Shown one piece after another: positions 1,833 through 9,210 of a stretch of DNA of 64,000 nt (its first letter is position 1; each line of letters begins with the position of its first letter). A program made the translations under genes and the position numbers. This DNA comes from Candidatus Altimarinota bacterium (GTDB lineage Bacteria; Patescibacteriota; Gracilibacteria; BD1-5; UBA2023): assembly GCA_028713325.1 (NCBI GenBank), contig JAQTON010000004.1, forward strand, positions 1-64,000. Direction: 5' to 3'. The notes beneath the pieces are model-generated. The model saw nothing but the letters and a program-made list of their open reading frames with translations, was not told the origin of the DNA and did not search any database.

Positions 1833-3176
1833 TTAGTTTTTAATACAAATAATTGAGTATCTTCCGGCAATAGGATATGATCATGGTGGAGCATATTCAG
1901 AATTTCCATTGTCAGACCTACCATAGGATGATATAATTCACCCAACATAAGAAGAGGACCACCAACGACCACCTACTCAAAATCCCGTAAAATTCGAAAA
2001 ATCTTCGCTGCGTGGAACCGACCATCAGACACCAAGGATGGAACATATATTACTTTGTGTCGCTACTCTATCATCATAGAACATTTCATTGCCACTCATT
2101 AAATATACTCCTGTATTGGGTATATGTTTCATATTTTGACTTGTCCAACATTTTTCAGTTGGTCAGAATAGCTTAGTAGTATATGCAAAACCACCAGCCG
2201 TTACTGTATCTCAACAGGGAACACAACTTTTTCCTGAGGTTAAATATCCTGAATCGCAGGAAGTAACAACGCAATTATTCCAGTATTGTTGATATGATAG
2301 CGCTGATGTATTATTCCAAGATTGCTGACCAATTCCATTTGAAACTGTACAAGACTTCGTATTAGAAACACAAACATTTCACTCTTTATGCTCAGTGGAT
2401 GAACATATGATATTTTGTACACAGGTTCCTCCATTAAATTCATACCCAGAATCACAGGAAGTAACAGAACAGAAACCCCAACCTGCCCATCAGGTATCAA
2501 CTACCCAAGTTTGATGACCTGCTCAGTTTGAGTATGTACAAGATTTTGTATCTGAAATACAAGCATTATTTTCTACATGCTGACCTGAAGAACAAGTCAA
2601 TTGATTCTGAATACAACTATTACTTGAGATTGAGTATCAATTATTACAACTTTTCACACTACAACTTCCGCTAACTTCCTGCCCAGTGCCATTCTGGATA
2701 TAACAACTCTTTATCACAGGGACATTAATCACTACTGGTACTGATGGAACTACTACTGGCGGAACATAGGTCACCCCCGTAGATACTGTTATTTGTGGAA
2801 TTGCAGGATTCTGAATTTTTGTCTGAACTATAGGTTTTTTCTCCTCAGCATGTACTATCGACCCAGTTGATGTCACCTGCCCGTTCTTCTCTCCAAATAA
2901 ATCACCCAGATCAATATCATTACTGACCCGAATATTTTCTACAGTCTTTCCTACGAGTGCTTGCAAGCGAGCATTATTCGGATATTTTGACACTGCTTTT
3001 TCAAGAAGTATAATGATTCGACCTCGCATAGACTCTCACCGAGCCTGAATCATCTTCTCTACTTTTGCCGTAGCACTTGATACGATACTTCTATCCTTAT
3101 CATTCAGCTCGTAAGCAAAAGTAAAATAAGGGAATAAGAGACTTAAGATAAGTCAGACTACTAAATATTTTTTCAT
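1833..3176 (-). CDS. Secreted Cys-rich surface protein with C-terminal FISUMP-like domain
   Basis: The protein has 447 residues; standard-code reading would cut it into at least five pieces. Residues 1-20 are a signal peptide (MKKYLVVGLILSLLFPYF). A helical region with IIILLEKAVSKYPNNARL follows, then a Pro/Val-rich linker near residue 130. Next come three or four related Cys-rich units, each pairing a CSS.QH.E.N.C stretch with TKSCT..NG and VTSCDSGY. The last 140 residues (CWTSQNMK, GVGWSVPRSEDF, GRWWSSSY, YSIICIKN) match the pattern of the Fibrobacter succinogenes major paralogous domain family, seen in exported proteins. Secretion and a role in adhesion or display are inferred. Confidence 0.75.
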
Positions 3177-3243
3177 ACAAAAAAGGTCATAAATATAAAA
3201 TTTACAACCAAAAGAGAAAGATTTTTATGGTAGTCTTGGCAAA

Positions 3244-3390
3244 CAAAAAGGAGCAATCTATCGCATCCTATGTTCGCCAAAACAATTCTTTTCTCACATA
3301 TAGATATAGAAAGAAAGGAGAGAAGCAGATAAATTGCTCCTTAACTGTTTTCTATATGTGAGAAAATAAAAAAAGAATCATTTTGGCACC
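3244..3390 (-). ncRNA. Candidate structured RNA or attenuator leader with interleaved stems
   Basis: On the minus strand two long inverted repeats alternate. Arm A lies at 3387-3352 and its partner at 3303-3276, including an 11-bp perfect match CTATATGTGAG/CTCACATATAG and GCCAAAA/TTTTGGC at the ends. Arm B lies at 3340-3328 and its partner at 3262-3250 (GGAGCAAT/ATTGCTCC plus extension). The order A-B-A'-B' is that of a pseudoknot. TTTTTGTTT follows the last arm, as in an intrinsic terminator, and a TATAAT at 3395-3400 sits just upstream. The result could be a free RNA of about 145 nt or a leader controlling the surface-protein gene 70 bp downstream. I match it to no known RNA family. Confidence 0.5.
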
Positions 3391-3394
3391 TCCG

Positions 3395-3423
3395 ATTATA
3401 CCCATCCCTCCGAAAAAGCAAAA
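3395..3423 (-). promoter_or_regulatory. Candidate promoter for the structured RNA
   Basis: A perfect TATAAT (minus strand, 3395-3400) lies 17 bp downstream of the weak -35-like TTTTGC (3418-3423). Initiation would fall near 3388, at the outer edge of the first stem arm. Confidence 0.4.
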
Positions 3424-3429
3424 AAGAAA

Positions 3430-3461
3430 AATCCCACACTCTCTCAAAAGAGTATGGGATC
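3430..3461 (-). terminator. Intrinsic terminator of copA
   Basis: The minus-strand stem ATCCCATACTCT/AGAGTGTGGGAT has one mismatch and is followed by TTTTTCTTTTTT. It lies 17 bp after the copA stop and closes the copper block. Confidence 0.75.
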
Positions 3462-3477
3462 TATTAAGAAATAATCT

Positions 3478-6400
3478 TTATTTCCCCACCGACTTCAAGT
3501 AATTCTCTCGAAATTTCTTCGGCACGAAGTGCATCATATCGAGGGAAGTGAAGGTCTTTTTCGGAAGTCCGGCGATGATGACAGCGCTTCCGTTTTCATC
3601 TTCAATCGTATCATAGACTTTGGAGAATTCCCCTTCTTCCCGCATCATCCGTGTGTCGTCGTAGCCGACATACATACTCAGGTATTCCTTTCCGCCGATG
3701 AGATATGTTTCTTTTCTCGGGTTTATGATGTTTTTAAGGAGTGGCGGAATCGTCGCCTCGTCGTAGAGATAGAAATACTCCATCTCTTCAAGAGGGGTTT
3801 CGAGAACCATAAGACTCTCGGGAAAGAGGAGTTTCGTATGGTTTGGGGTCGAGAGTATGTGGGCATCGTCGAGGAAAGTTCCGGTCGGTTTCAAAATACC
3901 CGCAACCCGCACGGTTCCGACTCCGAAAAAGTCCGGAAGCTCGTCTCCGACTCACTTGATGAGTCCTTCCTCGATCATCATCGCTGCTTCCGCGGAACCG
4001 ACGAGCATATTGTTTCCGGTTATATCCACTGTTCCTGTTTTTACTTCTAATCCTACAGGGAGTGTGTCGGTCCCGAAAAATACTTTCGGAAGCCCGCGGG
4101 CGTCGAATCCGATTTTCGTTCGAGAACTCACCATAAAGGATTTAATATCGGAAAGAAGTCAAGGATTCGTGGCAGTATACGAACGAACCGATTCCGTCGC
4201 ATTTCCGAATTGGGAGAATTGCCAGAAGACCCCAAGAAAGAGCGCGGTCATAAGAACGGGTGCAACCGCGGAGAGGATATTTCGTTTCCCGGGACGGAAG
4301 TTCTTGAGAAGGAGCGAATTCGTCACCACCGATACCGAAGACAGCGCCATCGCGAGCCCCGCGAGCTCCGGTTTCATGATGAATCCGAAGGTCGAAAGCA
4401 CGCCTGCCGCCACGGGAATTCCGAGGATATTGTAGAAGAAGGCAAAAAACATATTCTGTCGAATCTTTCCGACCGTCTGACGGGAGAGTTCGATGGAGGT
4501 GAGGACATCGCGGAGGTCGTTCTTCATAACGACAATGCCTCCCGATTCCATCGCCACATCCGCTCCGCTTCCCATGACGATTCCGAGATCAGCCTGCACA
4601 AGAGCGGGGGAGTCATTGATTCCGTCGCCGACCATCGCTACCCTTTTCCCGGCACTCTGGAGCTTTTTCACTTCCAGCGCTTTATTCTCCGGCAACACTT
4701 CCGCAAGCACATTTTCGATGCCGACTTTTACCGCTATGGCACGAGCCGTTCGGGCATTGTCCCCGGTGACCATATAAACGGCGATTCCGAGTTTTTTCAT
4801 CCGCTCGATCGCTTCCGCGGAGGTCGGTTTTATGACATCCGCAACCGCGATGAAAGCGAGAAGATTCTTTTCATCCGCCAAGAACATAACGGTTTTCCCC
4901 TCCGCTTCGAGGTTTTCAATCGTCGCTTTCATCTTGAGAGTTATATTGTTTTCTTCGAGAAAAAGTCTCGTTCCGAGAAGATAGGTTTTCCCCCCGAGTG
5001 TTCCGCGAACTCCTCTTCCGGGAACCGCTTGAAAATTCTCGACATCCGCAGTGACCGCTTTCAATTCATCCGCTCTTTGAACGATGGCTTCCGCGAGCGG
5101 ATGCTCGGATTTTCGCTCCAACGCCCCGGCTATCGAGAGGATTTCCTTTTCTTCCATATCCGCGATCGGCACGATATCGGTAACTTTCGGTTTTCCTTCA
5201 GTAATCGTACCCGTTTTATCGAGCACGATGACATCGATCTTACAGGCAATTTCGAGCGGTTCTCCTCACTTGATGAGGATTCCGTGCTCGGCTCATTTCC
5301 CGGTTCCGACCATAATGGCGGTCGGCGTTGCGAGTCAGAGAGCACACGGACAAGCGATGACGATGACCGCGGAGAAGTAGAGAAGCGCCGTTGCGAACGA
5401 CGAGCCGAGGAGGAAGTACCAAACGGCAAATGTGATGATGGCGACGACGATAACCATCGGCACGAAAACGGCGGAAATATTGTCCGCAAGCCCTTGAATC
5501 GGAGCTTTCGATCCCTGAGCTTCCTCTATGAGTGCGATGATATGCGAGAGAGCGGTTTCGGAACCGACTCCGGTCACCCGAAACTCGAAGCTTCCGAGCT
5601 TGTTGATGGTTCCCGAAAAGACTTTCGAGCCGAAAGTTTTCTCGATGGGCATACTTTCTCCGGTGAGCATGGATTCGTCGATGCTCGAATATCCTTCGGT
5701 TATCACTCCGTCGACAGGGATTTTTTCTCCCGGACGAACGATAACGATATCCCCCTGTTTCACCTCCTCGACCGCGATATCCATAACGGATCCGTTTCGT
5801 TTTACGCGAGCCGTTTTCGGTGCCATGTCCATGAGCCGTTCGATAGCTTCCGATGTTTTTCCTTTTGCCCGTGCTTCGAGGTATTTTCCGAGCGAGATAA
5901 ACGCCACGAGAAATGCCGCCACCTCGAAATAGATGTCGGGTATTTTCATACCGTTAATCCCGATAAGCGAACCGGTCTGTATAAAATACACGACATACGA
6001 ATAGAGACTGTACGCGTAAGCGGTGAAAGTTCCGATGGCGATGAGCGAATACATATTCGCGGTCTTCATACGGAGTGCCGACCATGCTCCGGAGAAGAAT
6101 TCCCGTCCGATGAAAAACACTATCGGAGTCGCAAGGAGGAGGGAAATAATCGCCGCATACGGCATGATAAGTCCTTCATACTGCGGAAACCGAACGAAAT
6201 CAAGCACCATAAACAGTACCATCGGAACGGAAAGGATCGCGGAACTCACGAATCGTATCTTCCATTTCCCGATATCGTGCGTGCGTTTCGTGTGCTCGGA
6301 ATGATTTCCCGGAGTTGCTAAATCGAAAGCTTCGTATCCCGCATCGACAATAGCTTTCTTGAGTGCCTCGGGATTCGTGCTCTTCGGATCATATTTGATT

Positions 6401-6858
6401 CGTGCCTTCTCGGACGCGAAATTCACATTCGCTTCATTTACACCCGGAACTTGTTTCAAGGATTTTTCTATGAGCCCCGAGCAACTGGAACAGTGCATAC
6501 CACCTATTTCAAAAGTGACGATGGAAGAACTTTCGGAAAAGACTCATTCATGACTCCTCTCTAATGTATGTGAGTGGGGAGAATTTTCTTGCGAATCTCA
6601 TCATTTCAGAGAATCATCAGAATGATTTTCTTTCTCATCATCCTCGTTCTCCAATTTCGCTTCATACTCCGAATCCTTTATAATCGCCTCGACGATCGCT
6701 TGACCGGAAGTGGAGTCGTCGAACTTAACCATGAGAGATCTTTTTTCAATATCAAAAGCGGTACTCTTGATTCCTGGAATACTCTTGAGTGTCATTCCGA
6801 TGAGTTTGACACAAGATTCGCAGTGAATAGTCGGGAGATTGATAGTTGCTTTTTTCAT
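3478..6858 (-). CDS. copA: Copper-exporting P1B-type ATPase with extra C-terminal domain
   Basis: The product has 1126 residues, against about 750-850 usual for CopA, and is read through at least seven TGA-Gly codons. Two heavy-metal-binding domains carry CESC (13-16) and CSSC (123-126). Then come the TGES loop (MLTGES), the CPC copper site at 503-505 followed by UGA-Gly 508, GTGKG, the phosphorylated Asp in LDKTGT (547), and the GDGINDSP hinge. After the last helix pair about 290 residues are unexpected; they include [16 protein letters not shown], resembling the periplasmic core of MacB-type permeases. ATP-driven export of Cu(I) is the family role. The gene is last in the copper block behind a CsoR-like site. 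Confidence 0.93.
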
Positions 6859-7309: not shown

Positions 7310-9076
7310 TTATTCGATATTGAGATACCCGTGTGGCATTCCCATGGCAGCACATACGAGCGGAAACCTTCCTTTTTTATCCGCTTTTATAGTGAACGTC
7401 ACTTTGTTTCCCGCCTCGAGATTTTGGATGTTCTCGTCGAATCCGGGAATCAGGATTTGTCGCATACAACCGCCGATGGTATCTTTCACATCGATGGTGA
7501 GCGTATAGGTTTTTCCATAAATAAGATTCAATTCATTCGGACTCATACCATCGCTGGTATAGACTGCGGAAAGAGTTTCATTTTGAGACACGGGAGGTGT
7601 AGTATTATTAATAAGAGTCTTTGCAACTGTGGTTTTCACTGGAGGCGAAGTTCTCACTCCCGTTGTCATCGGGCAACTGACGGCGGCTTCTATCGGAGTA
7701 TCTGAAACGGCGGTTGCCTGAGAAGGTGTCAGAGATGTTTGTATGTCCGACTCGGCACTATCGATGATGATTTTTCCCGAATACATCCCCATGCTGCACG
7801 AGAATTTGATCGTACCGCTTGCAGGCGAGATGAATTCGATGATATTCTCCCCTTGTTCGAGTTGTTTACTTACCCCGATAGAAGGAGTGGTGAGTTGACT
7901 CGCACAGGAGTAGGGATTGGTCGCATTGACAATCCATCTGGTCTTCATATTCGGCTTGATATGGAATACATTCGGACTGTATCCGCCGTCCGATTCGGTC
8001 ATTCGAATTTCTTGGACTTCATCCGATACGACCCCGGTCGATGGTACGACTTTAGTAGATCCACCGAGGTTCATAAGCGTGAATCCGTTCGAGATATTGA
8101 AGATTGCCAAGAGAAGTACGAGAACTCCCGTGAACTTGAAGAATCGTTTCGCGAAAGTTCCCGAGAGATACGAAGTGAGTCCTCCGACTCCGAGGAGTCA
8201 AGGAGCGGTTCCGAGGGCGAATGCCATCATAGTGAGAGCTCCAGTCGTGAAACTTCCGGTCGTGATGGCATATGCCTGCATGGCGAGCGTGAATCCGCAT
8301 GGCAGGAAGAAAGTAAGTCCTCCGGTTGTAAGTGCGACTATATGTTTCGAAGCGCTTCAGTTATTTGCGACTCCCGATCCGAGGAATTTCGGAAGCGTGA
8401 TCGATACTCGGGAAAGTCTCGGAGAAAGTTCCGAGAGGTTTACTCCGAGCAGAAGCATGATGAGTCCGGTTGCAACCGTGAGAACCCCGATAGCGAAGGG
8501 AGAAAGCGAGACGAAGGAACCGAATATTCCGAGGAGTCATCCAAGGATTCCAAATCCTGCGACACGGCCGATATTGAAATAGAGATGCGGTTCGAATCGG
8601 TGCCATTTCGAGGCCTGGATATGCTCTTCATTCCATTTCGAACTGACTCCGAGGATGAGTCCTCCGACCAGAGCCATACAGCTCGATACTCCCGCAGTGA
8701 CTCCGACGAGAAATGCCACGGTGAATGTCGGTGAAGCAAGGCTTCCAAAACCTCCAAAAGAGAATCCGCTCATCTTTGCGACCATATAGAGAGTATAGAG
8801 TGCCAATGCGATGAGAAGAATTTCAATGTACTTTCTCGGATTATGGTGAAACCAGGGAGGTGGTACTTCTTTCCCGATTTTGTACCCGCTTTCCTTGATG
8901 ATGGATTCGATGGCTTTTTCATCCGGCATTTTTTCGTCATACGAAATCTCGACCATTCCTTTGGATTGGCTTGCATGGACTTTCTCGACATGATCTACGC
9001 TCCGTATCGACTTTTCGAGGAGGAGTTCGCACGATTTGCAGTGCATTCCAGCGACGTCTATGGTGAGTTTTTTCAT
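7310..9076 (-). CDS. HMA domain / TauE-SafE-type membrane / cupredoxin fusion protein
   Basis: The protein has 588 residues from ATG 9076; the frame is open further upstream, but the HMA domain begins here (MKKLTIDVAGMHCKSC). The order is: metal-binding HMA domain with MHCKSC (residues 10-15); a linker; six or more membrane helices of the sulfite-exporter/DsbD-like type, with SSCMALVGG and FFLPCGFTLAMQ as the paired signature segments; then two cupredoxin-like domains with copper-ligand loops CSMGMYSG and CAAMGMPHG at the C-terminus. TGA-Gly codons fall in the membrane part. Moving copper across the membrane to an external cupredoxin site is inferred from the fusion and from the neighbouring copA and csoR. 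Confidence 0.85.
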
Positions 9077-9091
9077 ATTCGGTGAGTTAAG

Positions 9092-9210
9092 GAACTGCGG
9101 AAAAACTCGTTCTTTGAGATTAAATCTCCGTTTCCCCATTCTCCGTACAGTCGTACGGTTCATTTCGGTACTCGATTTGCACTCAAATTACTTCGTTTTT
9201 GCACAATTCT
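9092..9210 (+). repeat. Intergenic inverted repeat, family A copy 1
   Basis: Outer arms GAACTGCGGAAAAAC and GTTTTTGCACAATTC enclose a core with CTCCGTACAGTCGTACGG. The core is shared with copies at 14317, 15330, 55838 and, inverted, 20300. This copy separates csoR from the cupredoxin fusion gene. Confidence 0.8.

Follow-up and report, generated by a model that had tools for sequence, protein, structure and literature searches.

A candidate segment-swapping transcription attenuator upstream of restriction-modification and cell-surface genes in Candidatus Gracilibacteria

What is encoded by the interleaved inverted repeats that precede a gene for a secreted Cys-rich protein, and how might they act on that gene? 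The repeats form a leader on the minus strand of the window (the whole stretch of 64,000 nucleotides that was analysed), between a copper-type P-ATPase gene with a downstream hairpin and the start codon of the Cys-rich protein at 3176. The original prediction was of an RNA with two interleaved stems, possibly an attenuator for a surface protein, that matched no known family.

Architecture of the leader

The repeats are present in the predicted order, A-B-A'-B'. B/B' consists of 3248-3262 and 3328-3342 (15 nt, 93%), while A/A' consists of 3276-3304 with 3351-3387 and can be divided into the sub-arms 3286-3304/3351-3369 (19 nt, 95%) and 3276-3292/3371-3387 (17 nt, 88%). The perfect cores of 11 bp and 8 bp that had been given for the stems are approximate figures; the B:B' duplex has 15 pairs including one G-U, with an energy of -20.4 kcal/mol. 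TATAAT at 3400-3395 precedes the first arm and TTTTTGTTT at 3249-3241 follows the last, both as originally described. Read on the minus strand from the likely start at 3387, the order is A (3387-3374), B (3342-3328), A' (3304-3276), B' (3262-3250), and a U-tract (3249-3245). The fold of this leader lies 5.9 sd below that of shuffled sequences. The span first proposed, 3244-3400, falls inside the element but is too short: the element runs on to the start codon, taking in one more arm, C (3231-3245), and a terminator (3179-3213). The A':C hairpin and the A:D pairing, which make the leader a switch, had been missed. The parts of the leader are as follows.

3395-3421, minus strand: promoter, with a TTGctt-like -35 (about 3416-3421) and a TATAAT -10 (3395-3400)
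3374-3387, minus strand: arm A, GCCAAAAUGAUUCU, the predicted 5' end of the RNA; partner of A' or of terminator arm D
3351-3369, minus strand: 5' arm of the distal extension of the A helix; pairs with 3286-3304 and covaries across relatives
3328-3342, minus strand: arm B, AAGGAGCAAUUUAUC; partner of B' (pseudoknot) or of local strand b
3316-3331, minus strand (approximate boundaries): local strand b, about UCUGCUUCUCUCCUUU; can hold B in a hairpin
3276-3304, minus strand: arm A' and its distal extension, ending in AGAAUUGUUUUGGC; partner of A or C
3250-3262, minus strand: arm B', GAUAGAUUGCUCC; partner of B
3245-3249, minus strand: U-tract directly 3' of B', part of the conserved CC+UUUUU
3231-3245, minus strand: arm C, UGUUUGCCAAGACUA; rival of A for A'
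3179-3213, minus strand: terminator D, with the antiterminator target UUUUGG (3208-3213), a 10-bp stem (3200-3209/3185-3194) and a U6 tract (3179-3184) that ends 2 nt before the ATG
1833-3176, minus strand: putative regulated gene, encoding a 447-aa secreted Cys-rich protein (code 25)

In the pseudoknotted state, strand b may pair with the linker between A' and B'. The 447-aa protein has no match in Pfam or NCBIfam. By sequence likeness, the neighbouring gene at 3478-6858 encodes a P-type ATPase with a heavy-metal-binding N-terminus; a terminator-like hairpin follows it at 3431-3460, and the membrane protein encoded at 7310-9163 has a metal-binding motif similar to that of the ATPase.

Conservation and covariation

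How widespread is this leader? When 59 genomes were searched at the DNA level, its 3' half proved to be conserved in further genera of the order. Two covariance models were then used, R1 (the A':C hairpin only) and R2 (a wider model). The element was found in 36 (R1) and 39 (R2) of 77 genomes of one Candidatus Gracilibacteria order, in several copies in some, from match lists that in part count one palindrome on both strands. Its distribution within the order is patchy. Outside the order, there is one weak match among 276 genomes of the class and none in a phylum sample of 379 other genomes; strong matches among named records are all to Candidatus Gracilibacteria. Searches of phage records gave no match. 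Four pattern matches in IMG/VR fail the covariance model, as do two of the three tested from genomes outside Gracilibacteria, the third being a marginal Flavobacteriales match (E 0.004).

Neither the window region nor 12 relatives match Rfam 15 at gathering or permissive thresholds, in agreement with the original prediction; the hits listed at permissive thresholds (e.g., plant microRNA models) are at chance level and far below the cut-off. This RNA is not described in the literature searched, nor is any such cis-regulatory RNA family for Patescibacteria. In the Gracilibacterium genome paper, stem-loops flank a repeat gene and are not shown to be this element (PMC6851277). The predicted structured RNA belongs to a family that is widespread in the order and previously undescribed.

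The comparative set comprises 59 non-redundant elements. The absence of covarying pairs in relatives had been named as the outcome that would count against the original prediction; what was found is extensive covariation. Across A:A' and B:B', 97.2% of cells are paired (97.0% and 97.5%, respectively), with 351 two-sided compensatory cells and two-sided change in 20 of the 24 pairs. Neither helix was part of R1, the model that found the relatives. These counts were made on excised and concatenated arms, with the register of B set for best pairing and that of A chosen within two bases. The percentages are therefore slightly optimistic, but arms slid by one to three columns still give only 38-52% paired cells and 36-107 two-sided cells, and shuffled arms 71% paired. 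Arm C competes with A for A', and this pairing covaries too: 93.0% of A':C cells are paired, with 108 two-sided changes. A:A' and A':C are mutually exclusive because they have arm A' in common.

Comparison of cognate with non-cognate arms gives the same picture for the A:A' duplex (-15.8 versus -7.7 kcal/mol, z -24), the distal A helix (-8.6 versus -3.5, z -20), B:B' (-19.8 versus -10.0, z -18), A':C (z -13), and the stem of terminator D (-7.7 versus -2.6, z -13). The local B:b hairpin has a cognate z of -7.1 and the weaker helix between b and the A'-B' linker a z of -3.6, both with approximate boundaries. These z-scores are inflated, since permutation and shuffle tests ignore relatedness; the inflation is kept in check by the slid controls and by the fact that the elements come from several families. 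Sequence comparison gives good support both to the structured RNA and to its architecture as a switch.

When the 59 relatives are aligned on arm A, T occurs at -34 and -33 in 95% and 83%, and the -10 bases T-12, A-11, and T-7 in 83-86%. The -35/-10 pair is sharp, and the predicted +1 is fixed at the first G of arm A (GCCAAAAU). The one unpaired stretch that is nearly universal is CC+UUUUU after B', with 92-100% conservation per column; its position directly after B' makes B:B' a possible first intrinsic terminator. At the other end, a hairpin and U-tract abut the ATG in 38 of the 59 elements, the window gene included, compared with 0 of 51 other ORFs of the window; some of the remaining 21 have weaker hairpins and some apparently none. 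Two copies, the second copy of L083 (987-1040) and L087, keep A'-B'-C but have no A or B, and are possibly decayed or partial elements.

A proposed relay between alternative helices

How could such a leader control the gene behind it? Three features seen in the sequence are those of an attenuator: a promoter on the strand of the gene, mutually exclusive conserved helices, and an intrinsic terminator before the coding region. The compact regulatory RNA or attenuator of the original prediction is thus borne out as a candidate by covariation in relatives, a sharp promoter, and a terminator abutting the ATG. The leader is probably a cis-acting transcription attenuator that swaps segments in a base-pairing relay, with A:A' and B:B' in the OFF state and A':C and A:D in the ON state. 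The comparative data argue strongly for attenuator function and moderately for this polarity.

Transcription would start at arm A. Arm A', made about 100 nt later, would pair either with A or with the later arm C. In the OFF state, A:A' would form and be locked by the B:B' pseudoknot, leaving A hidden; terminator D could then form and the gene would not be transcribed, while B:B' with its own U-tract may act as an earlier terminator. In the ON state, B would be kept in its local hairpin and C would take A', and the freed A would pair with D, breaking the terminator so that the gene is read.

Which arm is the antiterminator? Shortly ahead of the start codon, the sequence on the 5' side of the terminator (UUUUGGC and variants) is the complement of arm A. 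In the first version of the model, C:D had this role; it was dropped for A:D once divergent leaders showed D matching A only. The opposite polarity, in which A:A' frees C, C:D is the antiterminator and the pseudoknot is the ON state, is unlikely, even though in most members some 7 nt of C could also pair with D (C:D cognate z -3.3) and C, lying closer to D, is kinetically favoured. The cognate z for A:D is -9.2, and A:D is the stronger pairing in 38 of 44 leaders and in 31 of 37 compared with equal windows (p 1e-6). In six divergent leaders (L102, L170, L174, L175, L176, and L192), D reads CUCGG or UUUCGG, which can pair with CCGAG in A and not with C; pairing with D has energies of -10.8 to -16.2 kcal/mol for A and -1.5 to -2.0 kcal/mol for C. 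Since D follows A rather than C, most clearly in this CCGAG subtype, the antiterminator strand is most likely the very 5' end of the RNA. Polarity is less clear in the window leader than in the divergent members, as A:D there has only 7 contiguous pairs and is hardly stronger than C:D (-7.0 versus -6.5). The divergent subtype lies upstream of EcoRI-type methyltransferases and was mostly missed by the covariance models. One such leader, L175 (G000:C3, about 146.6k), is a second, very divergent copy in the genome of the window itself; it precedes an EcoRI-type adenine methyltransferase gene and was missed by both R1 and R2.

What drives the switch? The two folds are close in energy: the median difference between A:A' and A':C folds is 0.5 kcal/mol across the 59 elements, and the leader of the window has -58.6 kcal/mol when folded as OFF and -55.8 kcal/mol when folded as ON (pseudoknot energy left out in both comparisons). 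A metabolite-binding riboswitch, with the pseudoknot as an aptamer stabilised by a small ligand, would have two such near-isoenergetic states, and both the promoter-leader-terminator layout and the conserved pseudoknot are typical of this class. It is nevertheless a somewhat less probable reading than the reversed polarity: the near-invariant columns sit in helices, the sole near-universal unpaired stretch is the U-tract, GCGAACA can be replaced by GCGAUAU with a compensating change in C, and the downstream genes have no common metabolic theme (Pfam on 30 proteins). That no invariant unpaired core is present speaks against a classical aptamer, though it is still compatible with a ligand. Together with the near-equal fold energies, this lack of a core makes control that is kinetic, stochastic, or driven by a protein likelier than a small-molecule aptamer, and kinetic or stochastic control fits as the driver of the switch.

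Could the RNA act elsewhere, or could the conserved unit be DNA? An independent trans-acting small RNA of about 140 nt, ending at the U-tract after B' and with the downstream gene incidental, would account for the separate promoter, the conserved U-tract, and the compact pseudoknot; it is improbable, given that conserved pairing runs past the U-tract into C and D and that a same-strand gene follows directly in all 59 elements (ORF start within 250 nt of C). A MITE, an integron attC-like site, or an invertible repeat might explain why copies are several per genome and patchily distributed, why they contain inverted repeats, why the site in the window is accessory, and why homology between G000 and G001 begins exactly at GCC. 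Such a DNA-level element is very hard to reconcile with the fixed orientation to the downstream gene, the +1 at arm A, the terminator at the ATG, and changes that are compensatory rather than copied; no relatives were confirmed in viral contigs.

The attenuator can be compared with known systems. Segment-swapping attenuators include the trp and pyr leaders and the rep leaders of plasmids pT181 and pIP501. The element shares with these a leader with a dedicated promoter, helices that exclude each other, an intrinsic terminator ahead of the gene, and an upstream segment able to preempt a terminator arm. Unlike these, it has no visible leader peptide and no enrichment of antisense promoters (promoter-like antisense sites in 35 of 59 leaders, compared with 38.4 ± 3.3 in shuffles); its antiterminator strand lies at the 5' end of the RNA, it has an interleaved pseudoknot and the third competitor arm C, and it is common to many unrelated genes. 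A pseudoknot with a downstream expression platform is also found in transcriptional riboswitches such as c-di-GMP-II, preQ1, and SAM-II, from which the element differs in having no detected invariant unpaired ligand-binding core and no Rfam match. In type III toxin-antitoxin loci (ToxIN), which are tied to phage defence, a promoter is followed by a pseudoknotted RNA, a terminator, and then the gene. The element resembles them in this order and in the link to phage defence. It differs in having no tandem RNA repeats and in its genes, which are methyltransferases, surface proteins, and others; Pfam found no ToxN/CptN/TenpN-type toxin among 30 downstream proteins. A relay switch that covaries heavily but lacks a conserved ligand pocket would broaden the known range of RNA attenuators.

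Genes behind the element

Is the element dedicated to surface proteins? A Cys-rich gene does lie downstream in the window, as originally stated, but the class is not surface-specific. Restriction-modification genes follow about 25 of the 65 elements with a downstream ORF (about 40%), and comprise EcoRI-type, C5, and N6/N4 methyltransferases, a Tsp45I endonuclease, and a ResIII/HSDR protein. The remaining genes largely encode surface, secreted, or zinc-ribbon membrane proteins; pseudopilins, a Peptidase_S74 protein, lipoprotein-like genes, and a nuclease with a signal-like N-terminus are also found. The restriction-modification genes were assigned by Pfam (for representatives) and NCBIfam, the others among them by sequence likeness. 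The order has 21 listed EcoRI-type methyltransferase genes (one fragment left out), of which 14 follow a detected element and five more follow a divergent one.

A single RNA device appears to gate a wide range of defence and cell-surface genes. This offers a directly testable mechanism by which cells that are reduced and depend on a host could govern their restriction-modification and surface genes with a small set of regulators. It is tempting to speculate, tentatively, that a ligand-free switch with near-equal folds serves throughout the lineage as a portable module, giving on/off heterogeneity to these genes in Gracilibacteria. If true, heterogeneity generated by the leader would be a non-genetic counterpart of phase variation.

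The leader and its gene look like an accessory block, as genome G003 has the orthologous ATPase followed by a pseudopilin-like gene and no leader. In G001, a leader (L049, G001:C61) has 94% homology to window positions 3387-3174 that begins exactly at the +1 (GCC), the promoters being different; the gene behind it looks broken shortly past its start. Serine recombinase genes adjoin the element in L018 and L019, which suggests mobile neighbourhoods. In-frame TGA codons number between 0 and 17 in the EcoRI-type methyltransferase genes of the order, a spread that suggests recent acquisition of some of these genes from standard-code donors.
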